Assembly (NCBI RefSeq): GCF_007971225.1
Contig: NZ_CP042435.1
Coordinates: forward strand, 5,459,501 to 5,523,500
Reading direction: 5' to 3'
Source of the DNA: Panacibacter ginsenosidivorans
Lineage (GTDB): Bacteria; Bacteroidota; Bacteroidia; Chitinophagales; Chitinophagaceae
DNA: 64,000 nucleotides
Below, piece by piece: positions 49,028 through 63,736 of this stretch; the first letter of the stretch is position 1; every line of letters starts with the position of its first letter. The position numbers were made by a program, and so were the translations under genes. The notes beneath the pieces are model-generated. The model saw nothing but the letters and a program-made list of their open reading frames with translations, was not told the origin of the DNA and did no database searches.

Positions 49028-49094
49028 ACATTTCTATTTTAATATTTTATAAAAACTTTTTTGATAGCTATCTTTTGTACTGGTGGCATCGCCT

Positions 49095-49214
49095 GTTGTG
49101 TCACTCACTTGTACTTTTCAGCTTCGAGCGGCGAGGTATGAGCTTCGGGTCTTTTGCTCGTGACCCCCCGCTAAAAGCTCACAGCGTTTCTTCAGTACAA
49201 GAGTGCGACGCAAG
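49095..49214 (+). repeat. Intergenic repeat, A/B inverted pair inside the cco operon
   Basis: A arm GTTGTGTCACTCACTTGTAC (49095-49114) and B arm GTACAAGAGTGCGACGCAAG (49195-49214). The 80-bp loop is about 80% identical to the loop at 59424. It lies between ccoG and ccoH. Confidence 0.89.
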
Positions 49215-49266
49215 GAACGATGCTCAAAGAACAAATGCCAGGCTCATTATTATCTTGTTCAGGAAA

Positions 49267-52040: not shown

Positions 52041-52083
52041 TTGAATTTTTTTTAATGAACTTTTGAATAACTATTAAGCTTTC

Positions 52084-52172
52084 GTTGTGTCACTCACTTT
52101 TGCGTTCGGAACTATATGCAGCTGTTAGCCTTTAGCTGATAGCTAATCTTCAGTACAAGTGTGCGACGCAAG
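52084..52172 (+). repeat. Intergenic repeat, A/B inverted pair inside the cco operon
   Basis: A arm GTTGTGTCACTCACTTTTGC (52084-52103, tail altered) and B arm GTACAAGTGTGCGACGCAAG (52153-52172). The loop contains CAGCTGTTAGCCTTTAGCTG. It lies between ccoNO and ccoQ, 43 nt beyond the ccoNO stop. Confidence 0.86.
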
Positions 52173-52215
52173 GAACGATGAACAAAGAGCTATAGCTGGC
52201 TATAAAAAATACTTG

Positions 52216-54390
52216 CTATTTATTTTCTGCAACCTGTTTTGATTCTGCTTTAATATCTGTTCCAACTCTTTGCAGGTATGCTATCAGCGCAATTATTTCG
52301 CTGTTGGCAGGTGCATTAAGTTTATCTTTTTTAAGATCAGCTTTTATTTTATTTGCCTGCGCTATAAGATCAGTGTTTGCCTGCAGATCATAACCGGGTG
52401 CATAAGGCACTCCTAATGTTTGCATGGCCCTTATTTTGGCAGGAGTAGAGCCTGTATCAAGTTTATTATCCATCAACCACGGATAAGAAGGCATAATAGA
52501 ACCCGGCGACATACTTCTTGGATCGAACATGTGGTTGTAATGCCAGCTATCAGGATATTTGCCTCCGATACGTGCAAGATCAGGCCCTGTTCTTTTACTG
52601 CCCCACTGGAAAGGGTGATCATAAATAAATTCACCGGCTTTACTATACTCTCCATAACGCGCCACTTCATCTCTGAAAGGGCGGATCATTTGTGAGTGAC
52701 AGGTATAACAACCTTCACGAACATAAATATCGCGGCCCTGTAATTCAAGTGGCGTATAGGGTTTAACTGATGCAATGGTTGGTACATTGCTCTTGATAAG
52801 AAATGTAGGAACAATTTCAAGAATACCACCAATAGCAACTGCTATTAAGCTAAACACTAACATTTGTACAGGTTTTCTTTCTATCCAGCGATGCCAATGC
52901 TCTTTGCCATGTGCCTTAATTACTTTTGGTAATGGTGCGGCTTCAGCAGCTTCATCTGCAACAAGACTTCCTGCTTTAATTGTTTTGTACACATTATAGA
53001 TCATGATGAATACACCAATAAGGTATAAGGTGCCACCAGTGCTTCTTGCCATGTATTCGGGAAGAATGTTGGTAACTGTTTCGAGGAATTGAAATTTCAA
53101 TTGTCCTTCTTCTGTAAAGGTCTTCCACATCATGCTTTGTGTAAAGCCTGCCCAATACAATGGCACTACATAAAGAACTATCCCTATAGTACCGATCCAG
53201 AAATGTGTATTAGCTAATTTCTTTGAGTAAAGCGGTGTTTTGAAAATTTTTGGAATGATCCAATAGATAACACCAAAGGTTAAGAAGCCATTCCAGCCAA
53301 GTGCACCAACGTGTACGTGCGCAATAATCCAGTCTGTAAAGTGTGCAATAGCGTTTACATTCTTAAGGCTTAACATCGGGCCTTCAAAAGTTGCCATACC
53401 ATAACAGGTTACAGCAACCACCATGAACTTCAAAATAGGGTCTTCTCTTACTTTATCCCACGCACCTCTTAGTGTAAACAATCCATTTAACATGCCGCCC
53501 CAGCTTGGTGCAATAAGCATTACGCTGAATACCACACCAAGACTTTGTGCCCAATCAGGTAACGCTGTGTATAATAAGTGGTGCGGGCCAGCCCAGATAT
53601 AAATAAATATCAGTGCCCAGAAGTGAACGATTGATAAACGATAGCTGTAAACCGGTCTGTTAGCGGCTTTGGGAAGAAAGTAATACATCAATCCCAGGTA
53701 AGGCGTAGTTAAGAAAAATGCTACTGCATTATGCCCATACCACCATTGCACTAATGCATCCTGCACGCCTGCATACCAGCTATAGCTTTTAAAAAAGGAA
53801 ACAGGTAATTCAAATGAGTTTACAATATGCAGCATTGCAACAGTAACCCAGGTTGCGATATAAAACCAGATGGCAACATACAAATGACTTTCCCTGCGTT
53901 TAAGAATTGTACCAAACATATTTACCCCAAACACAACCCATACAATGGTAATAGCAATATCAATGGGCCATTCCAGTTCTGCATATTCCTTACCTGTTGT
54001 ATAACCCATTAATAAAGTAATGGCCGCAGAAACAATAATCAATTGCCAACCCCAGAAATGAATTTTGCTTAGCTTATCGCTAAACATCCTTGCTTTACAT
54101 AAACGCTGTAATGAATAATATACACCCATAAAAATACCATTGCCTACAAAAGCAAATATTACCGCATTGGTATGTACCGGTCTAACTCTTCCGAATGAAG
54201 TTGCTGCAGTATCAAGATTAGCAGCAGGAAAGAAAAGCTGAATAGATGCAAAAAGACCTGCAAGCATGCCTACTACGCCCCAGAAAAGCGTGGCATACAC
54301 AAACATCTTTACTATCTTATTATCATAGTAAAATCTTTCAGTTGCAACAGGCTGGTCATTTAGTGCTGATGGTGTGAAATAAGCTGACAT
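52216..54390 (-). CDS. ccoNO: Fused cbb3 oxidase subunits I and II (CcoN-CcoO)
   Basis: A 724-residue fusion. The N-terminal 480 residues are CcoN: twelve helices with the binuclear-site region VQWWYGHNAVAFFLTTPYLG, WAGPHHLLYTALPDWAQSLG, and DWIIAHVHVGALGWNGF with haem ligands. The C-terminal part is CcoO: a membrane anchor, then LQGRDIYVREGCYTCHSQMIRPF, the haem c site near residue 560, and GGKYPDSWHYNHMFDPRSMSPGSIMPSYPWL. Fusion of these subunits is common in Bacteroidota. This is the oxygen-reducing, proton-pumping core used at low oxygen. It overlaps ccoS by 1 bp (TAATG). Confidence 0.95.
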   Translation of the reverse strand: MSAYFTPSALNDQPVATERFYYDNKIVKMFVYATLFWGVVGMLAGLFASIQLFFPAANLDTAATSFGRVRPVHTNAVIFAFVGNGIFMGVYYSLQRLCKARMFSDKLSKIHFWGWQLIIVSAAITLLMGYTTGKEYAELEWPIDIAITIVWVVFGVNMFGTILKRRESHLYVAIWFYIATWVTVAMLHIVNSFELPVSFFKSYSWYAGVQDALVQWWYGHNAVAFFLTTPYLGLMYYFLPKAANRPVYSYRLSIVHFWALIFIYIWAGPHHLLYTALPDWAQSLGVVFSVMLIAPSWGGMLNGLFTLRGAWDKVREDPILKFMVVAVTCYGMATFEGPMLSLKNVNAIAHFTDWIIAHVHVGALGWNGFLTFGVIYWIIPKIFKTPLYSKKLANTHFWIGTIGIVLYVVPLYWAGFTQSMMWKTFTEEGQLKFQFLETVTNILPEYMARSTGGTLYLIGVFIMIYNVYKTIKAGSLVADEAAEAAPLPKVIKAHGKEHWHRWIERKPVQMLVFSLIAVAIGGILEIVPTFLIKSNVPTIASVKPYTPLELQGRDIYVREGCYTCHSQMIRPFRDEVARYGEYSKAGEFIYDHPFQWGSKRTGPDLARIGGKYPDSWHYNHMFDPRSMSPGSIMPSYPWLMDNKLDTGSTPAKIRAMQTLGVPYAPGYDLQANTDLIAQANKIKADLKKDKLNAPANSEIIALIAYLQRVGTDIKAESKQVAENK

Positions 54391-54563
54391 TAATCGATTT
54401 TTTTATTTTGGTTTTTAGAAACTGGTGCATCATCAAATAATATTCTTAAAGGGGGACTTTCTTCATCATCAAACTGGCCTTTTTTTATGCTCCATAGAAA
54501 TGCGATCAGAAAAATGGCTGCTACTGTAATACTTGCAATCAGTAAAATGATAATAACACTCAT
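54390..54563 (-). CDS. ccoS: cbb3 maturation protein CcoS
   Basis: A 57-residue protein found by translating upstream of ccoNO: MSVIIILLIASITVAAIFL..., one helix, then FLWSIKKGQFDDEESPPLRILFDD, the typical CcoS tail (xxKxGQFDDxxxPAxRxLxDD). CcoS is needed for haem and copper insertion into the oxidase. Its stop overlaps the ccoNO start by 1 bp, so the two are coupled. A TAnnTTTG box and a TTGA-N6-TCAA site lie upstream. Confidence 0.92.
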   Translation of the reverse strand: MSVIIILLIASITVAAIFLIAFLWSIKKGQFDDEESPPLRILFDDAPVSKNQNKKID

Positions 54564-54610: not shown

Positions 54611-54624
54611 TTGACGTTACTCAA
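54611..54624 (-). promoter_or_regulatory. FNR/FixK-type box of the cbb3 operon
   Basis: TTGACGTTACTCAA has the perfect half-sites TTGA-N6-TCAA of FNR/FixK boxes. Its centre is 33.0 bp upstream of the ccoS -7 box centre (22 bp between), close to the class II position of -41.5. Confidence 0.65.
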
Positions 54625-54708
54625 CCTGTCTTATGATTGTTGTCATGTTTTTGAATGTATTGTATAAGAAAGTTTATGTGCCCGGCTGTAAAACAATGCG
54701 AAACAACT

Positions 54709-54845
54709 GTTGCGTCGCACACTTGTGCGGAAGAATATATAGCAACAGTGAAAAGTCAAAAGTGAGAAGGGAAAGGGGTTTTCAATTTGGCTTTTACTTT
54801 TCACTTGCTTAATAAAGTTCCGAACGTAAAAGTGAGTGACACAAC
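54709..54845 (-). repeat. Intergenic repeat, A/B inverted pair between ccoI and ccoS
   Basis: B arm GTTGCGTCGCACACTTGTGC (54709-54728) on the left and A arm ACGTAAAAGTGAGTGACACAAC (54824-54845, tail altered) on the right, followed by GATGCCAC. The element is reversed and begins 41 nt beyond the ccoI stop. Confidence 0.86.
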
Positions 54846-54886
54846 ATGCGATGCCACAACAATTGAAAGCTGGTAGCAAAATATTA

Positions 54887-57298
54887 TTACTCCTTATTTT
54901 GTTTGGTGAGGTTCATTTTCCATGCTGCAACATTGCTTGCGCCAAATGTTACCAGTAAAATACTAAGGCTGCTTGCGGGCATAAGAATAGCAGCGATCAT
55001 AGGAGAGAGGTTGCCCTGTACGGCAAAATATATTCCTATAATATTATACAGTATCGAGATTGCGAAACTTGCCAGCACTATTTTTTTATTGATCTTGCAT
55101 AATTGAATAAACTTATACAGCTTTGGTAATTCGTCTGCTTCGAGAATCGCATCGCTGGCCGGTGTAAAATTGTTGCTGTGATCACTAATAGCAATTCCAA
55201 CATCTGCCTGTTTCAATGCGCCTGCATCATTTAATCCATCGCCAAGCATCATTACTTTCTTAACCGCTCTTTGTAATTTTTTTATTTTCTCCAGCTTATC
55301 ATCCGGGCCTTGCTGAAAGGAAAGTTCAGTCTCACTGCCAAATATTTTGTTGAGCGCAGCTCTTTCACTGTCATTATCGCCACTTAAAACAGAAAGGCCA
55401 TATTTATTTTTAAGTTTTGTGATAAGGGATGGAATGTTATTGCGGTAATGATTTCTGAAAATAAATTTCCCCATCACTTTTTCTTTTACGGAAACATATA
55501 CTGCGGAGCTTTCATTGTTAGTATTATCCCCCGTTACAAATTTTCGTGAGCCAACGGAAATCAAATCTCCATCCACAATGCCTTCAATGCCATAACCGGG
55601 TATTTCAGAAAAATCTTTTAAAGGCATTTTTGATGGGCTATTCAAATAAGAAAACACTGCTTTACTCATAGGGTGCGTGGATTGTGCGGCCAGCGTTGCG
55701 ATCTTATTTTTCAAACGGCCGGAAAGGTATTCGCCTTTGTAGTCGATATCTGCACCAGCGCCGGTTGTAAGCGTTCCTGTTTTGTCAAAAACAATATGCT
55801 CAACATTGGCTATTTCTTCTATTACCTGTGCATTGCGCAGATAAAATTTATTGCGGCCAAGAATGCGTAAAATATTTCCGTTGGTAAAAGTGTTGCTTAA
55901 TAAAAGTGCACATGGGCAGGCAATAATAAGCACAGCAGTAACTGCAGGCCATATTTTTGAGACGTCATTAAAATACCAGAATATTGCGGTAGCCAATGCT
56001 ATAGAGAAAACGATCCAGGTGAAATACCTGCTTAGCAAATGCACGAATGATAACTGCTTTGTATTCTTGTCTTCCTTTATCTCATCGCGGTTCCAGAGTT
56101 TTGTGAGGTAGCTTTGCGCCACTTCTTTTATTACCAGTATTTCAATATTTGCGCCGGTTTGTTTTCCCCCGGCATAAACAATTTCACCCATTTCTTTTTG
56201 TATGGGTAAACTTTCGCCTGTTACAAAACTGTAATCAATAAATGCACGGCCGCGGGTTAGTATGCCATCTGCCGGAATCAATTCTTCATTATGAATTAGC
56301 AGGGTGTCATTTAGTTTTATATCGGGCAATGCAACTGTCTCTTCCATAGCAAGTACAAGTTTGGTAACGGCTATGGGAAAATAAGATGTATAATCTCTTT
56401 CAAAACTTAATTGCTCATAAGTTTTATCCTGCAATATCCTGCCAATCAGCATAAAAAAAACAATGCCGGACATACTATCAAAGTAGCCACTTCCTGTGTT
56501 GGTAAATACTTCATACAGGCTTCTGCCAAAAGTTACCCAAACTGCCAGCACTATTGGGGCATCTATGTTTAAGAATTTATGGCGCAAGCTCTTCCAGGCG
56601 CTGATATAAAATTCTGACGCACTATAAAAGAAAACAGGTAAACTTAAGATCACATTAAGAATGCGGAATAAACTAAGCAGATCCTGTTCTTTAGCATCGA
56701 TACCCAGGTACTCAGGAAAACTTAATAACATAATATTGGCGAAGCAAAAACCCGCTACACCAAGTTTATAAATTTTTGACCTGTTCAAGCCAGGTTTGGC
56801 CTTCTTCATATCATTGAAGCTTATATACGGCTCGTATCCGATACTCGTAAGTAGTTCTGCTACCTGTTTTAAAGAAATGCCTGTATGGTTGAATATTATA
56901 CTTACTTCTTTTTTTACAAAATTTACTTTACTGCTTATAATATGTTCATTAAGCCGGTGTAGATTCTCTAATAACCACAGGCAACTGCTGCAATGTATTT
57001 GGGGCAGGTAAAAGGTAACGTGGGATTGGGTTTTATCGGTATAATCAAGAAGAGAGCGCTGTATCTTTTCATCATTAAGAAAATTGAATTTATCTTTTCG
57101 TACAACTACCTTTCTGTTACTACCGGGATTTTTTGAAATGGAATAATAATCACACAGGCCATTTGTGTTTAATATGCCGTATACCATTTTGCAACCTTCA
57201 CAGCAAAAATTTTTTCCGTAAGCAACCAGTGGATTTTTACCACAATCTTCCCCACAATGATAACAGGTTGTTTGTTGATGAATAGTCTGTTGGTCCAT
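54887..57298 (-). CDS. ccoI: Copper P1B-type ATPase for cbb3 oxidase (CcoI)
   Basis: A heavy-metal P-type ATPase of about 803 residues. The start at 57298 (MDQQTIHQQTTCYHCGEDC) is chosen over 57385 because the frame's extra 29 residues overlap the promoter and hemN upstream region. CxxC motifs occur near the N terminus and in IHCSSCLWLLENLH (near 105). The TM6 motif CPCALLLSN (near 463), DKTGTLT (near 506) and MLGDGLNDAGAL follow. An N-terminal Cys-rich domain (CYHCGEDC, CCEGCKMVY) is typical of CcoI. It exports copper for the oxidase. It is followed by a repeat element and then ccoS. Confidence 0.93.
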   Translation of the reverse strand: MDQQTIHQQTTCYHCGEDCGKNPLVAYGKNFCCEGCKMVYGILNTNGLCDYYSISKNPGSNRKVVVRKDKFNFLNDEKIQRSLLDYTDKTQSHVTFYLPQIHCSSCLWLLENLHRLNEHIISSKVNFVKKEVSIIFNHTGISLKQVAELLTSIGYEPYISFNDMKKAKPGLNRSKIYKLGVAGFCFANIMLLSFPEYLGIDAKEQDLLSLFRILNVILSLPVFFYSASEFYISAWKSLRHKFLNIDAPIVLAVWVTFGRSLYEVFTNTGSGYFDSMSGIVFFMLIGRILQDKTYEQLSFERDYTSYFPIAVTKLVLAMEETVALPDIKLNDTLLIHNEELIPADGILTRGRAFIDYSFVTGESLPIQKEMGEIVYAGGKQTGANIEILVIKEVAQSYLTKLWNRDEIKEDKNTKQLSFVHLLSRYFTWIVFSIALATAIFWYFNDVSKIWPAVTAVLIIACPCALLLSNTFTNGNILRILGRNKFYLRNAQVIEEIANVEHIVFDKTGTLTTGAGADIDYKGEYLSGRLKNKIATLAAQSTHPMSKAVFSYLNSPSKMPLKDFSEIPGYGIEGIVDGDLISVGSRKFVTGDNTNNESSAVYVSVKEKVMGKFIFRNHYRNNIPSLITKLKNKYGLSVLSGDNDSERAALNKIFGSETELSFQQGPDDKLEKIKKLQRAVKKVMMLGDGLNDAGALKQADVGIAISDHSNNFTPASDAILEADELPKLYKFIQLCKINKKIVLASFAISILYNIIGIYFAVQGNLSPMIAAILMPASSLSILLVTFGASNVAAWKMNLTKQNKE

Positions 57299-57349: not shown

Positions 57350-57363
57350 CTGATGCGTCTCAA
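57350..57363 (-). promoter_or_regulatory. FNR/FixK-type box of ccoI
   Basis: On the minus strand TTGAGACGCATCAG matches TTGA-N6-TCA with one outer mismatch. Its centre is 33.0 bp from the ccoI -7 box centre, the same spacing as at ccoS. Confidence 0.55.
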
Positions 57364-57402
57364 CTATAAACATGATCATGGTCATGTAACCCAGGAAAGA
57401 GG

Positions 57403-57416
57403 CTGACCAGAATCAT
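57403..57416 (+). promoter_or_regulatory. FNR/FixK-like box of hemN
   Basis: CTGACCAGAATCAT contains TGA-N6-TCA with both outer bases changed. It is 33.0 bp (centre to centre) from TATTTTCG at 57439-57446, a one-mismatch -7 box. Using that box would make hemN nearly leaderless, which weakens the case. Confidence 0.38.
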
Positions 57417-57450: not shown

Positions 57451-58827
57451 ATGAAAAATGATTTTGATGTACCTGCTGCATTGATAAGGAAATATAACCA
57501 GCCTGTTCCCAGGTATACAAGCTATCCAACTGTTCCTTCGTGGAAGGAAACAATAGACACAGGAGAGTGGAAAAATATTATTCAAACAAAATTTGCAGCA
57601 GCGAACGGTCAGGGTATCAGCCTTTACCTGCATCTTCCTTTTTGTGAAAGTCTTTGCACCTATTGCGGTTGTAACAAAAAAATTACAACTAATCACAGCG
57701 TAGAAGAAAGATATATTGCTGCGTTAGAAAAGGAATGGGAACTTTACAGGGAGCTGATGCAACAGGCGCCGGTAATAAGAGAATTACATCTCGGAGGAGG
57801 CACACCCACATTTTTTTCTGCCACCAACCTGGAAAGAATACTTCAACTAGTTCTAAAAGATACCATCGTTCATCCCTTGCATGAGTTTAGCATAGAAGGC
57901 CACCCTAATAATACAACCATTGAACAATTAGAAACTTTATATAAACTAGGTTTCAGGCGCATTAGCTATGGCGTGCAGGATAATGACCCAACTGTGCAAA
58001 AGATCATAAACCGCATTCAGCCGTTTGAACATGTAAAATCGGCAACTGAAAATGCAAGAGCAACTGGGTTTACTTCTGTGAATTTTGATCTTATCTATGG
58101 CTTGCCTTTTCAAACAAAAGATAGTATAAAGAAAACAATAGAACAGGTAATAACATTAATGCCCGATCGTATTGCTTTTTACAGTTATGCACACGTGCCC
58201 TGGACAAGTAAAGCACAACGCCTCTTTGATGAAACAGACCTTCCATCTGCTGAAGATAAAATAGGATTATACCTGACCGGCAAGCAACTATTACTTGAAA
58301 ATGGTTATGCAGATATAGGTATGGATCATTTTGCTTTACCGCATGATGCATTGTATAAAGCACGTATAGACGGAAGTTTACACAGGAATTTTATGGGTTA
58401 TACCACGCAACATACCAGCGTGCTGCTGGGCCTTGGTGTATCAGCTATAAGTGATGCAGGCACTGCGTTTGCCCAGAATGATAAAACATTAAGCGGCTAC
58501 TACACTGCTCTTGAAGAGTATAAATTGCCTATAAAAAAAGGTTACATACTTAATCAGGAAGACCTGCTTTTCAGGAAAAATATAAAAGATATAAGCTGTA
58601 TCGGTAAAACAACTTTCGCAGAAGAGCAGTTGCCTTTGCTGAAAGAATACAGTTTTTCTCAGCTATCATTACTGGCGGAGGATGGACTTGTTCAGTTTGA
58701 TTCAGATGGTTGCGTGTTAACTGAGAAGGGACATTATTTTATAAGGAATATTTGCAGTGCGTTTGATTTGCATCTGCAGCGAAATAAAATTGAAAATGAA
58801 AAACTTTTATTTAGCAAAGCTATATGA
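57451..58827 (+). CDS. hemN: Oxygen-independent coproporphyrinogen III oxidase (HemN)
   Basis: A radical-SAM enzyme of about 458 residues acting in haem synthesis without oxygen. The start at 57451 is chosen because MKNDFDVPAALIRKYNQPVPRYTSYPT matches the family N terminus; the frame is open from 57418. The Fe-S motif is HLPFCESLCTYCGCNKKI (near residue 60-70), followed by LHLGGGTPTFFSATNLERIL and RRISYGVQDNDPTVQKIINR. VPWTSKAQRLF and IGMDHFALPHDALYKA are further HemN blocks. It is divergent from ccoI and supplies haem for low-oxygen respiration. Confidence 0.94.
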   Translation: MKNDFDVPAALIRKYNQPVPRYTSYPTVPSWKETIDTGEWKNIIQTKFAAANGQGISLYLHLPFCESLCTYCGCNKKITTNHSVEERYIAALEKEWELYRELMQQAPVIRELHLGGGTPTFFSATNLERILQLVLKDTIVHPLHEFSIEGHPNNTTIEQLETLYKLGFRRISYGVQDNDPTVQKIINRIQPFEHVKSATENARATGFTSVNFDLIYGLPFQTKDSIKKTIEQVITLMPDRIAFYSYAHVPWTSKAQRLFDETDLPSAEDKIGLYLTGKQLLLENGYADIGMDHFALPHDALYKARIDGSLHRNFMGYTTQHTSVLLGLGVSAISDAGTAFAQNDKTLSGYYTALEEYKLPIKKGYILNQEDLLFRKNIKDISCIGKTTFAEEQLPLLKEYSFSQLSLLAEDGLVQFDSDGCVLTEKGHYFIRNICSAFDLHLQRNKIENEKLLFSKAI

Positions 58828-58847: not shown

Positions 58848-58861
58848 CTGATCACAATCAT
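58848..58861 (+). promoter_or_regulatory. FNR-like box upstream of the 133-residue protein gene
   Basis: CTGATCACAATCAT contains the complete core TGAT-N4-ATCA of an FNR box. Its centre is 55 bp from the -7 box at 58906, two helical turns further than at ccoS, near the class I position. Confidence 0.4.
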
Positions 58862-58983: not shown

Positions 58984-59385
58984 ATGACAAACCAGGCCAG
59001 GGAAATATTAATCACAGAAGACACACTGGTATCAGACATACAGGAAATTTTTAGCAGTTTTTATCCCTTTCTGAAAATAGAATTCTCAAAACTGCAAAGC
59101 AATAGTCAAAGCTTGCAAAAATCCAGGAAGGTTTTACCTCAGGACAGTATAAAAAATATAACCAATGCAATGATGCCAGTAAAACTTAGAATAGAAAACA
59201 AACGCACCATTGCACAGGTTGAAGATGATTGCATACAACAGTTGGGTTTACTTGTGCAGATATCACGAAAATCCGGAAATGTGTGGAATACGATTTCGCT
59301 CACAGAAAACTGGACACTGGAAGAGCAGAACAATGCAGGAAAATTTATCAGTTCTGAAATGAAACTTCCGCCGGTGAAAGAATAA
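58984..59385 (+). CDS. Conserved-looking protein of unknown function
   Basis: I do not recognise a family. The 133-residue soluble protein has an N-terminal helical region with DTLVSDIQEIFSSFYPFLKIEF and a C-terminal block LLVQISRKSGNVWNTISLTENWTLEEQNNAGKFISSEM. It looks like a small sensor or ligand-binding fold (the second half resembles a beta-meander, then a helix). Position between hemN and the oxygen-sensor kinase, and an FNR-like box upstream, suggest a role in low-oxygen metabolism, but this is inference. Confidence 0.65.
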   Translation: MTNQAREILITEDTLVSDIQEIFSSFYPFLKIEFSKLQSNSQSLQKSRKVLPQDSIKNITNAMMPVKLRIENKRTIAQVEDDCIQQLGLLVQISRKSGNVWNTISLTENWTLEEQNNAGKFISSEMKLPPVKE

Positions 59386-59423
59386 TTTTTTTTGTGTCCA
59401 GCAACAACGGTCACTTCAGCATC

Positions 59424-59543
59424 GCTGTGTCACTCACTTGTACATTTCAGCTTCGGGCGGCGAGCTTTGAGCTTCGGGTCTTTCACTCGTGGCTCGCAGC
59501 TAAAAGCTCACAGCTATTTTACAGTACAAGTGTGCGACGCAAC
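59424..59543 (+). repeat. Intergenic repeat, A/B inverted pair with conserved loop
   Basis: A arm GCTGTGTCACTCACTTGTAC (59424-59443) and B arm GTACAAGTGTGCGACGCAAC (59524-59543), followed by GATGCCAT. The loop contains CTTCGGGCGGCGAGCTTTGA and AGCTAAAAGCTCACAGC, shared with 49095, 19800 and (reversed) 31415. Confidence 0.89.
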
Positions 59544-59647
59544 GAAGATGCCATAAAATGCTGTAGCTGACTTACAATATATCTACAGTATTAACTGAAA
59601 CTAAAATAATAGATACTTCAGTTAAAACAAAGCCGGGTACCTAAAAA

Positions 59648-60703
59648 TTAATAAGGCAGGTTCCTCAATTTTTTTTCATCTGTAATGATTACTTTACCAT
59701 GTTGAATATCTATCAGCTTTTCATCTTTAAAATCTCCAAGCGTTCTTATCAGTGATTCTGTAGCTATGCCAACTGATTGTGCCATGTGTTCGCGGGAAAG
59801 ATTGAGTATTGGATTTTCTTCCTGCTCTGTGCGGTATTTTTCCAATAACTGTATAAGGCCGAACGCAACTTTTTTTCTTAATGAATTATAAGCAAGGTTT
59901 AGCAGGCTTTCTTCTTTCTCGGCTATATTCTGTGTAATGATCTTTATAAATGTTTGTGCTATCTGCATATCGCCTGATATGAGTTGAAGAAAATCTTCAC
60001 GTGGTATAAGCATTAACTGTGCATCTTCCAGTATTTGCGCTTCTTCTTTATAGCTTGTATTTTCCATTACAGGTGTGTAGCCAAAGAAATCTCCCGGCCC
60101 GTATATGCCCGTGATAAATTCTTTTCCATCATCATTGCACCTTGCTGTTTTTACCTTGCCTGATATAATATGGTACACAGCACGGGGGCGCTGCCCTTCT
60201 TTATAAAGTGAGTATTTTTTACTGTAAGCGTTTACTTCGCGTTCATCTGATACAAGTTTAACCTTACCGGTTTTCTGAACATCTGCAAGAAAATCATTTA
60301 CTGCTCCCGGGCCTTCATAACGGTTTTTTACCAATGAAGCCTTTTTTAGTCTTGCTTCTATTGCATTTAATAATTCAATGCCATCAAATGGCTTTGTTAT
60401 ATAATCATCGGCGCCCATTTCCATACCTTTTCGCAGATCTGTTTTTTCTGATTTTGCTGTTAAGAAAATAAAAGGAATGGCAGATGTCTCTTTGTGCTTA
60501 CTTAACAGGTGAAGCACGCCATAGCCATCCAGCACCGGCATCATAATATCGCATACGATGAGGTCTGGTAATTCTTTCAAAGCAATTTCTACGCCCTGTT
60601 TTCCATTCTCCGCAGTAAGGACTTTATAATTGGAAAGTGCCACGATCTCTGCGGTATTTTCCCTTACTTCCATGTTGTCTTCTATGATCAGAATTGTTTT
60701 CAT
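59648..60703 (-). CDS. Receiver-Crp/Fnr hybrid response regulator (FixJ+FixK-like)
   Basis: A 351-residue fusion. The receiver (residues 1-120) has the phospho-acceptor Asp52 in LIVCDIMMP, Thr82 and Lys104 in YITKPFDG. A cyclic-nucleotide-binding-like domain (about 160-250) contains AVYHIISGKVKTARCNDDGKEFITGIYGPGDFFGY. The winged helix has SREHMAQSVGIATESLIRTLGDFKDEKLI with Glu316 and Arg320 at the two positions that contact TGA in Fnr; the intervening Ser is Ile319. No Fe-S Cys cluster is present, so it depends on phosphorylation or a ligand. It follows the FixL-like kinase gene by 15 bp and probably controls ccoS, ccoI and hemN. Confidence 0.92.
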   Translation of the reverse strand: MKTILIIEDNMEVRENTAEIVALSNYKVLTAENGKQGVEIALKELPDLIVCDIMMPVLDGYGVLHLLSKHKETSAIPFIFLTAKSEKTDLRKGMEMGADDYITKPFDGIELLNAIEARLKKASLVKNRYEGPGAVNDFLADVQKTGKVKLVSDEREVNAYSKKYSLYKEGQRPRAVYHIISGKVKTARCNDDGKEFITGIYGPGDFFGYTPVMENTSYKEEAQILEDAQLMLIPREDFLQLISGDMQIAQTFIKIITQNIAEKEESLLNLAYNSLRKKVAFGLIQLLEKYRTEQEENPILNLSREHMAQSVGIATESLIRTLGDFKDEKLIDIQHGKVIITDEKKLRNLPY

Positions 60704-60718
60704 GCCTTCAGTTGAAAA

Positions 60719-61993
60719 TTAATTTTGTGGAATATAAATGGTGAATACTGAACCTTCTTCAAGTTTGCTTTTAATTTCAATTCTTCCATTCATCAGCTCA
60801 AGATATTTGGCTACTATATGCAATCCAAGCCCTGTGCCCTGTATGTTTGCTGCATTTTTTGCCCTGAAGAAACGTTCAAACAAATGCTCCTGGTCTTCCT
60901 GTGAAATACCAATGCCATTATCCCTGATGGCAATAATAAGATCCACATCTGATAGATCGCAGGAGATATTAATGCTTGAGTGTTCCTGTGTAAATTTAAT
61001 TGCATTTGATACCAGGTTGATGAGAATATTTTTTAAAAGCTGCTTGTCAACCAATACATCGTTATAAATAGAATCGTTAAGCTGAATGTGCTGGCCGGTT
61101 TTTAGCATACCATCCATTTCCTGTATTACGTTCCGGATTATTTCAATTACGGTTACAGCCTCTGTTTTTTCCATCTGCACTTTTACCCTGCCTTCTTCGA
61201 GTTTACCCAGCGAAAGAAAATCTTCCAGAATACTTTTCATACCGCCTACTGCAGCTTTGATGCGAAGTATATGTTTGTTTATTTTTTCATCGGGTAGTTG
61301 TTCGGTATATTTTTCAAGCAGGTAAGCCGAGGAAAGAATAGTACTTAAAGGAGTTCTGAACTCATGAGAAGCCATGGTTACAAATCTTGATTTCAATTCG
61401 CTCAACTCTTTTTCATTTTCATAAGCTTCGCTAAGTTCTTCTTTTGATTTTTCAAGCTCTACCAATGCTTCCCGCAGCATTTTTGTGCGATCGTCTATTT
61501 TTTGTTCCAGTTCGCTATTCATTTCCCTGATCTCTGTAGTTACTCTTTCCAGCTCTTTCTTTTGATCCAATACAAGACTTTCCTGCTTCTTGCGAACGGT
61601 TATATCAATTACAAAAGCAATTACAAAAGTTTCGTTCCCTATTTTGTAATGACTAAGACTTACTTCCACGGGGAAAGTACCGCCATTCTTATTGGTTGCA
61701 TAAAGATCCCTGCCATGGCCCATTACTCTTGGCTCAGGATGTTCATAATACTGGTGGCGATAATTTACATGCCGCGAATGTATTGCCTGTGGTAAGAGTA
61801 CTTCAACTCTTTTCCCTACTATCTCTTCTTTCGTGTAGCCAAACTGGTTCTCTGCAAACTTATTAAAGTTAAGAATCTCACCGTTATGGTTCGTTACAAC
61901 AATACCAATGGAAGCAAAATTAAAAAGTGCTTCCAGCTGCTGACTGCCGTCAACAGAAATTGAAACAATTTGCTTGTCGTTATTATCCTTCAT
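60719..61993 (-). CDS. FixL-like PAS sensor histidine kinase
   Basis: A soluble 424-residue kinase. The PAS domain (about 17-135) keeps His75 in SRHVNYRH and Arg95 in MGHGRD, 20 residues apart like haem ligand His200 and distal Arg220 of Bradyrhizobium FixL, with Tyr78 at the Tyr203 position. Then come a coiled coil (about 135-205) and HisKA with MASHEFRTPLSTILSSAYLL (near 210). The ATPase domain has N box LINLVSNAIKFT, G1 IRDNGIGIS and G2 GTGLGLHIV. It should sense oxygen (or NO/CO) through haem and phosphorylate the receiver-Crp protein 15 bp downstream. Confidence 0.9.
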   Translation of the reverse strand: MKDNNDKQIVSISVDGSQQLEALFNFASIGIVVTNHNGEILNFNKFAENQFGYTKEEIVGKRVEVLLPQAIHSRHVNYRHQYYEHPEPRVMGHGRDLYATNKNGGTFPVEVSLSHYKIGNETFVIAFVIDITVRKKQESLVLDQKKELERVTTEIREMNSELEQKIDDRTKMLREALVELEKSKEELSEAYENEKELSELKSRFVTMASHEFRTPLSTILSSAYLLEKYTEQLPDEKINKHILRIKAAVGGMKSILEDFLSLGKLEEGRVKVQMEKTEAVTVIEIIRNVIQEMDGMLKTGQHIQLNDSIYNDVLVDKQLLKNILINLVSNAIKFTQEHSSINISCDLSDVDLIIAIRDNGIGISQEDQEHLFERFFRAKNAANIQGTGLGLHIVAKYLELMNGRIEIKSKLEEGSVFTIYIPQN

Positions 61994-62087: not shown

Positions 62088-62492
62088 CTATGTTTTATTT
62101 ATCTGTTGTATCGGGCTGTTTTCGTGTAATATCTTCAATTGCATAACTGTGGCTATACTTATAGCTCTTTGCTTGGCAAGCTCAGCTTTGTCGCCTTCGA
62201 AAAGCCGGTCAACGGTAGATGTAAATAATTTTATCCACTGCTCAAAATGATCTGTAGTAAAATGCACTATGCTATGCATCTTAACATGCGCCGTCATTGG
62301 GTTGCCATTATAAGAGCCGGTAAAAAATATTACATTCTCCCAGAAATTATACATCACCGGTAAATGTTTTTCCCAATTTACTTTAGCAATATCATTAAAT
62401 ATATAGCCAATGGTTTTATCTGCTTTCACTTTATCATAAAAGCTGTTTATCAAAAGTTTTATATCCTCAATATTTTCAATGTCTTTTTTCAT
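62088..62492 (-). CDS. Group III truncated haemoglobin
   Basis: A 134-residue globin. EDIKLLINSFYDKVKADKTIGYIFNDIAKVNWEKHLPVMYNFWENVIFFTGSY is the typical group III truncated-globin N-terminal part, with FWENVIFFTG around the haem pocket. HFTTDHFEQWIKLFTSTVDRLFEG contains the proximal-side region with His, and the E-helix region carries NPMTAHVKMH. Such globins bind oxygen, NO or other ligands; no function is fixed for group III. It starts 5 bp after the cupin stop, so both are co-transcribed. It fits the low-oxygen block. Confidence 0.9.
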   Translation of the reverse strand: MKKDIENIEDIKLLINSFYDKVKADKTIGYIFNDIAKVNWEKHLPVMYNFWENVIFFTGSYNGNPMTAHVKMHSIVHFTTDHFEQWIKLFTSTVDRLFEGDKAELAKQRAISIATVMQLKILHENSPIQQINKT

Positions 62493-62788: not shown

Positions 62789-62836
62789 AATAATAATTTT
62801 TTTTGAGCCATGCTTTAGTAATGCTATGATACTTTC

Positions 62837-62929
62837 GTTGCGTCGCACACTTGTACTGTTTATCCCTCTGTCGACAGTCGACTGTCAACTGTCGACGGCT
62901 TTTCCGAATGTACAAGTGAGTGACACAAC
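62837..62929 (-). repeat. Intergenic repeat, A/B inverted pair with palindromic loop
   Basis: B arm GTTGCGTCGCACACTTGTAC (62837-62856) and A arm GTACAAGTGAGTGACACAAC (62910-62929), followed by GATGCCA. The loop holds four overlapping GTCGAC/TCGAC units (62870-62896). It begins 40 nt beyond the permease stop at 62969. Confidence 0.88.
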
Positions 62930-62968
62930 CGGCGATGCCACCTGCACCGTAGCCCGTAAACAAAATAT

Positions 62969-63736
62969 CTAAAGATCTTTCCTGGAAAAATTTCTTACAG
63001 AAAACCACAATGGCAAAAATGCCCACAACAATAAAATGAATAAAGCAATTACAGAGCCTGTTGCGCTATCGAAAAAATTTCTGAATATAGCGCCTGTGTA
63101 ACCCATGAGTGCTGACATATCCATGTGTAATAAAATAAGTATCCGGGTAAGATCAATTGGGTTTAGGGCTGAAAAAAGGAGCATGGGTTTTTCCATAGGG
63201 TAATCCTGGAATTGAAATAATATAAATAAAACCAGCCCATCGAAAATGATGGAAAAATAAAACCACAATAAAATGGATAGACCAATGCCTCTGGCTTTAT
63301 CTCTTGTTTTTACAGATGCGAGTAATGCAATGGAAACAAAAATTACGGAAAGCAGCATGCCTGTTAAAAGCATTGTTATTCCTGTGGCATCGGGCTGATA
63401 CAATAAAATGGGAATGCCTGCGCCGATAAAAAATGCCAGTAGAAATGCAAAGGAAAGACCAATAAAAATACTTAGCCACAAGGTTCTTCTTTTAACAGGC
63501 TGACTTACCAGCAGCTCAATAAATTCAGTGCTGTTGTAGACATAAATGGTAGAAAATATTATGGCAACAAGCGGCACAATTATGAGGATGATATTCAACA
63601 GGCTGATTAAACCCTTGCTGCTGCTGTCTTCCAGGCTGAAGACACTTAATGATACCGCAAGCAGAAACAAAGTATAGCCAATGATGATCTTGCTGCGCAG
63701 TATGTCAAGCATTACATATTTTATGATTTTTTTCAT
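62969..63736 (-). CDS. nosY: ABC-2 type permease, NosY-like
   Basis: A 255-residue permease with about six helices. MKKIIKYVMLDILRSKIIIGYTLFLLAVSLSVFSLEDSSSKGLISLLNIILIIVPLVAIIFSTIYVYNSTEFIELLVSQPVKR is closely like the Bacteroidota NosY proteins I recall, including ELLVSQPxKR. NosY with NosF forms an ABC transporter for nitrous oxide reductase maturation. It lies downstream of an ATPase gene on the same strand whose stop is at 63831. The call as NosY is from family resemblance and from neighbouring low-oxygen genes; another ABC-2 exporter is possible. Confidence 0.75.
   Translation of the reverse strand: MKKIIKYVMLDILRSKIIIGYTLFLLAVSLSVFSLEDSSSKGLISLLNIILIIVPLVAIIFSTIYVYNSTEFIELLVSQPVKRRTLWLSIFIGLSFAFLLAFFIGAGIPILLYQPDATGITMLLTGMLLSVIFVSIALLASVKTRDKARGIGLSILLWFYFSIIFDGLVLFILFQFQDYPMEKPMLLFSALNPIDLTRILILLHMDMSALMGYTGAIFRNFFDSATGSVIALFILLLWAFLPLWFSVRNFSRKDL

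Follow-up and report, generated by a model that had tools for sequence, protein, structure and literature searches.

A histidine kinase paired with a receiver–Crp/Fnr fusion: a probable two-component version of FNR in Bacteroidota

In a 64,000-nucleotide stretch of the Panacibacter ginsenosidivorans genome (contig NZ_CP042435.1, positions 5,459,501 to 5,523,500 of the forward strand; hereafter, the window), a soluble PAS histidine kinase of 424 residues (60719–61993, minus strand) lies directly upstream of a 351-residue response regulator (59648–60703, minus strand) in which a receiver is joined to a complete Crp/Fnr protein (hereafter, the fusion). We read the pair as FNR in two-component form: widespread, a novel variant assembled from known parts, with a clear DNA code and a putative sensor; we call it a kinase-driven FNR because of the box that it shares with stand-alone FNR at the cbb3 oxidase (cco) genes, the distribution of the two regulators among genomes and the tree of their Crp parts. 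Comparison of sequences across relatives establishes the pairing, the conserved residues, the palindromic box, its doubling and a link between the box and the recognition helix of the fusion, and suggests that the pair does FNR's job across many Bacteroidota, where it appears to overlap with, and in many genomes to stand in for, the iron–sulfur (Fe–S) FNR. We favour, with moderate confidence, a system in which the PAS kinase would sense low oxygen and signal through the fusion, its FNR-type output, to boxes at the cco and hemN genes.

The kinase–fusion pair and its spread

Both open reading frames (ORFs), which are 15 bp apart on the minus strand, were confirmed at the coordinates given in an earlier note made from the DNA letters alone. 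Pfam domains in the fusion are Response_reg (residues 4–116), cNMP_binding (160–243) and HTH_Crp_2 (278–349); the receiver carries Asp52 and the helix–turn–helix (HTH) carries Glu316, Ile319 and Arg320, with Asp52, Glu316 and Arg320, all named in the earlier note, invariant in 138 of 138 aligned relatives (the window's protein counted). The receiver, whose top NCBIfam matches are OmpR/PhoB-type response regulators, has the residues of a two-component receiver (Asp9, Asp52 and Lys104 in 60 of the 60 aligned proteins), and the remainder has the effector fold and HTH of the Crp–Fnr family, with the recognition-helix Glu and Arg present. Its output (cNMP_binding and HTH_Crp_2, not a LuxR/GerE-type HTH) sets the protein apart from FixJ, and its match to the FixK family NF050806 (75.3 bits) is under the cut-off of 300. 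The fusion has none of the four FNR cysteines: columns C7, C10, C56 and C109 hold Val, Asn, His and Met in the window's protein, and Cys stands there 0, 0, 1 and 16 times in the 138 fusions (among the commonest six residues listed), C7 and C10 falling ahead of the Crp part. Likewise, FFGYTPVMENTSYKEEAQ stands where GELALM..RAA, which we take to be the cAMP-binding motif of CRP, would be expected, and that motif was also absent from the 60 fusion rows looked at. In an AlphaFold2 model of the fusion (predicted local distance difference test (pLDDT) score 83.6), the 50 Protein Data Bank (PDB) matches listed by Foldseek were all of the Crp/Fnr family, A. fischeri FNR included, over at most 239 aligned columns, and none of those listed spans the receiver and Crp parts together. 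The kinase has PAS, HisKA and HATPase_c domains (Pfam), with the HisKA His210 invariant among 28 aligned kinases, and its model (pLDDT 85.1) matches histidine-kinase and LOV-kinase structures; the predicted structures of both proteins serve to confirm domains only.

Of 395 Bacteroidota genomes, 55 (this one counted) carry the fusion at E ≤ 1e-70, and at least 583 relatives turned up in GTDB contigs; the best 80 of these relatives include 78 whose titles name Bacteroidota, one Azovibrio and one 'uncultured bacterium'; the closest named relatives are from Chitinophagaceae and other Bacteroidota. In 120 of 138 usable loci, a kinase lies directly upstream on the same strand (2 of the other 18 are cut by a contig edge), which supports a conserved two-component pair, as far as gene order and residues can indicate. 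These 138 loci include two fusion pairs that are at least 97% identical, and three further loci (L061, L115 and L177) were dropped because the simple gene caller missed the fusion ORF. A survey of Bacteroidota for the gene pair had been proposed in the earlier note, and the pair does recur, so that it is not peculiar to the window. Annotated plasmid copies of the fusion are named only 'response regulator' or 'transcriptional regulator'. Within the fetched flanks of the 138 loci, ccoNO, ccoP or ccoG occurred 44 times and cco or hemN 53 times; by our estimate, 17–19 kb of a 4–5 Mb genome would hold a single-copy cluster by chance in well under 1% of cases. Other neighbours were universal stress protein (Usp; 35), Hsp20 (21) and orf133 (18) genes. 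Six fusion genes without an adjacent kinase (L046, L048, L050, L170, L129 and L132) were seen beside a divergent ccoI.

The DNA box and its link to the fusion

A palindrome scan of 996 intergenic regions, made without prior assumption, found ATGAT-N4-ATCAT in 36 regions, compared with a mean of 0.8 in 10 dinucleotide shuffles, accompanied by close variants. The site of the fusion is likely to be [A/C]TGAY-N4-RTCA[T/G], which has the FNR spacing (TGA-N6-TCA) and a different outer base. Such sites are often doubled: 89 TGA-N6-TCA pairs were exactly 22 bp apart, with at most 4 at every other distance from 12 to 60; 27% of sites had a partner at 22 bp (at least 5 of 6 core letters), compared with a mean of 0.8% at other offsets; and an exact double box was present in 61 of 138 loci. 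Genome-wide, the single box occurred 127 times versus 46 for a reversed control (contig-end duplicates included) and the double box 17 times (16 without one duplicate) versus 1.

In the window, MTGAYNNNNRTCAK occurs five times (1.0 expected; 0 of 100 shuffles reached 5), four of them in the gaps around ccoS, ccoI, hemN and orf133, given an inferred ccoI start at 57298. Of the matching sites that the earlier note had reported at the neighbouring cbb3 and hemN genes, the ccoS box is real (54611–54624, TTGACGTTACTCAA) and is half of a 22-bp double box; the TTGA-N6-TCAA form is not the preferred one. That form was rejected as the site (3 sites in 40 fusion-bearing versus 2 in 39 other cco regions), and TGA-N8-TCA was below chance in the window. 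The ccoS double box, TTGACGTTACTCAA-N8-ATGATTGTTGTCAT (54611–54646; second half 54633–54646), lies 47 nt upstream of the ccoS start. Another, CTGATGCGTCTCAA-N8-ATGATCATGGTCAT (57350–57385, also 22 bp apart), lies between the divergent ccoI and hemN, 51 nt from the inferred ccoI start and 65 nt from the hemN start at 57451, and overlaps the longest possible ccoI reading (to 57385). Single boxes are found 34 nt upstream of the hemN start (CTGACCAGAATCAT, 57403–57416) and between hemN and orf133 (CTGATCACAATCAT, 58848–58861), and, past the window edge, two more lie upstream of the cytochrome c gene that heads the nos cluster. A promoter and terminator scan gave no excess (16 versus 15.9 and 2 versus 3.8 in shuffles). 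Among 14 further double boxes that we read, 13 were intergenic, some of them next to genes for a universal stress protein, a fatty-acid desaturase, DUF892, baeRF, PolX-like and YceI-like proteins (YceI below cut-off).

The outer base of the box varies with the recognition helix. Residue 319 is Ile in 118 of the 138 fusions, Ser in 15 and another residue in 5, and the base before TGA at fusion loci is G or C in a ratio of 45:8 for the Ser type and 37:198 for the Ile type (p = 7e-22); for TGA trinucleotides in general within these regions, the preceding base showed no Ser/Ile difference. The contrast recurs at cco in fusion genomes without a four-cysteine FNR (G:C of 11:4 in 7 Ser genomes and 9:45 in 18 Ile genomes, among them G037 and G064; p = 7e-5). 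Because the outer base follows residue 319, the fusion itself probably reads the box. In one family (f5), a double box stands between the fusion and the next gene at five of six Ser-type loci (L079, L080, L082, L084 and L087; not L081), and in every case G is the outer base at least once when both strands are considered; in G316, the one such genome whose cco region was fetched, the boxes at cco are single ATGA...TCAT sites.

The same box appears to serve stand-alone regulators. It is present at cco in 28 of 39 genomes without the fusion, several of which carry, beside cco or elsewhere, a stand-alone Crp protein that begins with Cys-x2-Cys and shares the recognition helix; four Cys columns are common to 52 of 53 of these FNRs (the N-terminus of the exception was not aligned). 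Among 80 cco regions, the upstream box was found in 26 of 27 genomes with the fusion only, 14 of 14 with both regulators, 28 of 28 with FNR only and 0 of 11 with neither, the single fusion-only genome without it being represented by an 847-bp stub. Several FNR-positive genomes in this comparison were assigned by coverage of the N-terminal Cys region, their sequence unread; FNR absence in 6 of the 11 genomes with neither rests on a search at E ≤ 1e-55; cco regions were fetched for all but 8 of the 48 genomes bearing both cco and the fusion; and one genome (G053) was moved from the negative to the positive set. Of the 27 fusion-only genomes, 20 had no stand-alone homologue listed at E ≤ 1e-32, beyond which weaker Crp proteins may exist, and 19 of these 20 had the cco box.

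Across 92 genomes of families f1–f5 and f7–f10, 84 were cco-bearing, with fusion and FNR in 21, fusion only in 30, FNR only in 26 and neither in 7 (Fisher p = 0.0008, uncorrected for relatedness). The seven with neither are all of family f4, and the three looked at hold a relative without N-terminal Cys. A search for diverged fusions in FNR-only genomes yielded two frames (357 and 366 residues) with a similar receiver, which were rejected as candidates; the one of the two that was read, in G383, is a receiver with a kinase-like ATPase, the other being in G150. In a tree of the Crp part, 36 stand-alone rows (every second FNR locus from L342 to L390; L269 dropped) and 60 fusions fall on opposite sides of one branch (support 100/99), so one fusion or one loss suffices to explain the split.

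Probable oxygen sensing, alternative explanations and a proposed mechanism

The PAS domain of the kinase (residues 15–140; 61574–61951, minus strand) has FixL (best E = 1.7e-17) and Escherichia coli DosP as its top PDB sequence matches, with the next protein at only 5.8e-6. The earlier note had placed His75, Tyr78 and Arg95 at FixL-matching positions, and they do align ungapped with FixL haem-PAS sequences; we take them to be equivalent to FixL His200, Tyr203 and Arg220. His75, inside a model helix spanning residues 69–84, and Arg95 thus provide the F-helix His and the distal Arg at +20 that characterize FixL, and the whole kinase scores 110.7 bits against the FixL equivalog NF041777, whose cut-off is 850. 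The F-helix His is described in PMC10468136 as the main haem determinant, present in about 60% of the FixL/DosP PAS cluster. In our set, it was found in 103 of 111 fusion-paired PAS domains and in 24 of 28 unlinked control domains (p = 0.26), and it carries little weight for haem because it is nearly as common away from the fusion: His75 is general to this PAS subfamily, and the His75/Arg95 spacing was rejected as proof of haem. Arg95 is the more informative residue, occurring in 62 of 111 paired and 6 of 28 unlinked domains and, with FixL-proper PAS set aside, in 42 of 91 paired window-type and 2 of 24 unlinked domains (p = 7e-4). The paired counts cover 111 of 120 kinases, nine being dropped for want of an alignable PAS, and the control domains are lower-scoring matches (19 of 20 fetched loci gave rows), a selection biased away from the query's own residues. 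Haem sensing by the kinase PAS is plausible and is favoured by the sequence similarity of the domain. The window's His93 stands at +18 from His75, where DosP has its distal Met; a six-coordinate haem is possible.

This genome holds a second pair at 29.3–31.5 kb, beside Hsp20 and cation-ATPase genes, whose PAS has the His, with Lys in place of the Arg. A PAS of this type also occurs in a third kinase (C1:774285, L104; likewise at L273), which keeps the His and has Leu in place of the Arg; double boxes are found near it, one of them upstream of a fatty-acid desaturase gene.

An explanation that we consider unlikely, if worth keeping in view, is that the PAS is no haem-based oxygen sensor, binding another ligand or using haem for nitric oxide or redox, and that the pair regulates energy or stress responses in general, with cco among its targets. 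The frequency of the His in unlinked domains fits this, as do the variability of position 95 (Arg 62, Met 18 and Leu 9 of 111), the position of His93, the frequent Usp and Hsp20 neighbours and the lack of an alignable PAS of the FixL/DosP kind in 9 of 120 paired kinases; yet the PAS has haem proteins as its top PDB matches, paired kinases have Arg95 more often, the linkage to low-oxygen genes is repeated, and 20 of 111 pairs combine the same kind of regulator with a FixL-proper PAS (IIG..R; Arg in 20 of 20, Arg being part of the defining pattern). We give about the same low weight to a different assignment of the reader, in which a stand-alone Crp/Fnr would be the main reader of the cco and hemN boxes here and the fusion would control other genes or act upstream, in a cascade from kinase to fusion to Crp gene. 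This genome does hold a stand-alone Crp (2193446–2194048) that is 42% identical to the cco FNR, with GTGATCATTATCAA just upstream and no Cys seen in its N-terminal part; a small nos-linked Crp gene (L269:1687–2280), divergent from the nos cluster and two boxes, with a Glu-x-x-Ile-Arg helix; and two more Crp genes with N-terminal Cys and different helices; moreover, cco boxes are equally frequent without the fusion. On the other side stand the cco box in 19 of the 20 genomes just described, the tracking of the outer base with fusion residue 319 and the lack of a cco-type four-Cys FNR in this genome at E ≤ 1e-55. A cascade step with stand-alone Crp genes as a second tier may persist. Least probable, in our judgement, is a sign opposite to that of FixL, with the pair repressing or being active with oxygen; sequence cannot reveal the sign of regulation, but 8 of the 14 further double boxes are 45–71 nt ahead of a start codon, a position that suits activation, and FNR and FixK mostly activate from such boxes.

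Beyond the non-diagnostic His75, the variable position 95 and the paired kinases without such a PAS, several observations weigh against an oxygen-sensing kinase acting through the fusion on cco and hemN. Other Crp/Fnr proteins of this genome, including the two with N-terminal Cys, could read the boxes, and in five of the genomes that carry the fusion no cco match reached E ≤ 1e-100. The box is as common at cco with FNR only as with the fusion, and was rejected as a fusion signature (MTGAY-N4-RTCAK in 32 of 40 regions with the fusion versus 28 of 39 others); the contrast became informative once these others were divided by presence of FNR. Doubling at cco is more frequent in fusion-only genomes (13 of 27 versus 9 of 42 others, p = 0.03), but it also occurs with both regulators (3 of 14) and with FNR alone (6 of 28), so it is not exclusive to the fusion, and hardly any Ile-type fusion loci of family f5 have a double box (1 of 16). 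The p-values for residue 319 overstate the contrast because the 15 Ser-type proteins form exactly one clade (support 97/87), that is, a single evolutionary change. The 11 genomes with neither regulator come from more distant families (f17, f31 and f35), such that relatedness confounds the box comparison, and the two regulators coexist in 21 of 92 genomes, which led us to reject strict mutual exclusion.

In the mechanism that we propose, the PAS kinase would sense falling oxygen, most likely through PAS-bound haem, autophosphorylate on His210 and then phosphorylate Asp52 of the fusion. The phosphorylated dimer would bind [A/C]TGAY-N4-RTCA[T/G], often as two adjacent dimers at a 22-bp spacing, and activate ccoS-ccoNO, ccoI and hemN, with the nos operon and stress genes as probable further targets; the fusion would thereby cover the role of the four-cysteine (presumably Fe–S) FNR, with sensing moved from the transcription factor into the kinase. 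More tentatively, and as a possibility that we would not put at even odds, a haem-PAS kinase version may have replaced or paralleled Fe–S FNR in much of the Bacteroidota, the sensor being swapped on a fixed promoter code, with receiver–receiver contacts accounting for the strict 22-bp boxes. If the proposed mechanism is correct, Bacteroidota would have a low-oxygen circuit for which both the DNA code and the regulon (cbb3 oxidase, hemN, N2O reduction and universal stress proteins) can be predicted, and nature would have provided an experiment in which the same promoters are driven by two oxygen sensors of different chemistry. Both the 22-bp doubling and the link of residue 319 to the outer base lend themselves to direct tests, and the linkage to nos is relevant to the removal of N2O by organisms that have a Sec-type NosZ.

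Genomic setting and comparison with known systems

The pair is flanked on one side by hemN and the cbb3 cluster and on the other by a cupin gene, a probable truncated haemoglobin and the nos cluster. Behind the ccoS double box, the first gene encodes a small membrane protein that we take to be ccoS-like (54390–54563, minus strand), followed by ccoNO, fused cbb3 oxidase subunits I and II (52216–54390, minus strand; NF011053 above cut-off). A ccoI-like heavy-metal P-type ATPase gene (54887–57298, minus strand) is divergent from hemN, which encodes oxygen-independent coproporphyrinogen III oxidase (57451–58827, plus strand; TIGR00538 above cut-off), and hemN is followed by orf133 (58984–59385, plus strand), a conserved small protein that matched no Pfam or NCBIfam family at E ≤ 0.001. 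Upstream of the kinase are the probable truncated haemoglobin (62088–62492, minus strand; Bac_globin 18.5 bits, below the cut-off of 21) and a nosY-like ABC-2 permease (62969–63736, minus strand), part of a nos cluster that runs past the window edge with nosF-, nosD- and nosL-like genes, a Sec-type nosZ and cytochrome c; the nosL label is our presumption for a gene without a family match.

The window is part of one single 5.5-Mb contig, the start of which (C1:1 to about 11700) repeats genes of the contig end (from about 56838 of the window, an estimated boundary). The repeated copy of the fusion gene carries a frameshift, and the repeat is most likely an untrimmed circular overlap rather than a duplication. 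An intergenic element has five copies in the window (about 49077–49243, 52082–52201, 54709–54857, 59422–59572 and 62825–62947), in which the ends resemble GTTGTGTCACTCACTTGTAC and GTACAAGTGTGCGACGCAAC, inverted relative to each other, and the middle varies; it looks like a small mobile or repetitive extragenic palindromic (REP)-type repeat.

Among the papers considered, judged largely by titles and abstracts and excluding subscription papers, we recognized none as describing this receiver–Crp fusion, which does not imply absence from print. FixL–FixJ–FixK is the obvious relative: FixL senses O2 by haem and FixJ activates fixK (PMC4999443), and Bradyrhizobium FixK2 directly activates nosRZDYFLX (PMC5582078). 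The system described here likewise has a PAS kinase closest in PDB sequence to FixL, a Crp/Fnr output and low-oxygen targets of the same kind, but it belongs to Bacteroidota, unites receiver and Crp/Fnr in one protein without a FixJ-type output, and is associated with [A/C]TGAY-N4-RTCA[T/G], often doubled at 22 bp. The interpretation in the earlier note is supported in part and is better recast: its 'shortened FixL–FixJ–FixK' circuit is a fair analogy in that a receiver and an FNR/FixK-like output are fused, and the domain fusion dispenses with a separate FixJ and FixK; a transcription step would not necessarily be removed, because two stand-alone Crp genes have box-like sites upstream and could form a second tier. 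The window's PAS can be aligned with the FixL/DosP haem-PAS 'cluster 3' (PMC10468136) and has its F-helix His, which does not single out this kinase within a cluster where many but not all members have it. With OmpR/PhoB-type regulators, the fusion shares a receiver with a phospho-acceptor Asp, whereas its output comprises an entire Crp/Fnr fold, effector domain and dimer helix included. FNR may be a better comparison than FixJ and FixK together because the fusion appears to read the same box and 30 of the 84 cco-bearing genomes in the families tested have the fusion without this FNR: the four-Cys Bacteroidota FNR shares the cco box and a closely similar recognition helix (GTATESxIR), and differs in having four cysteines and no receiver, where the fusion has a receiver and none of the cysteines.

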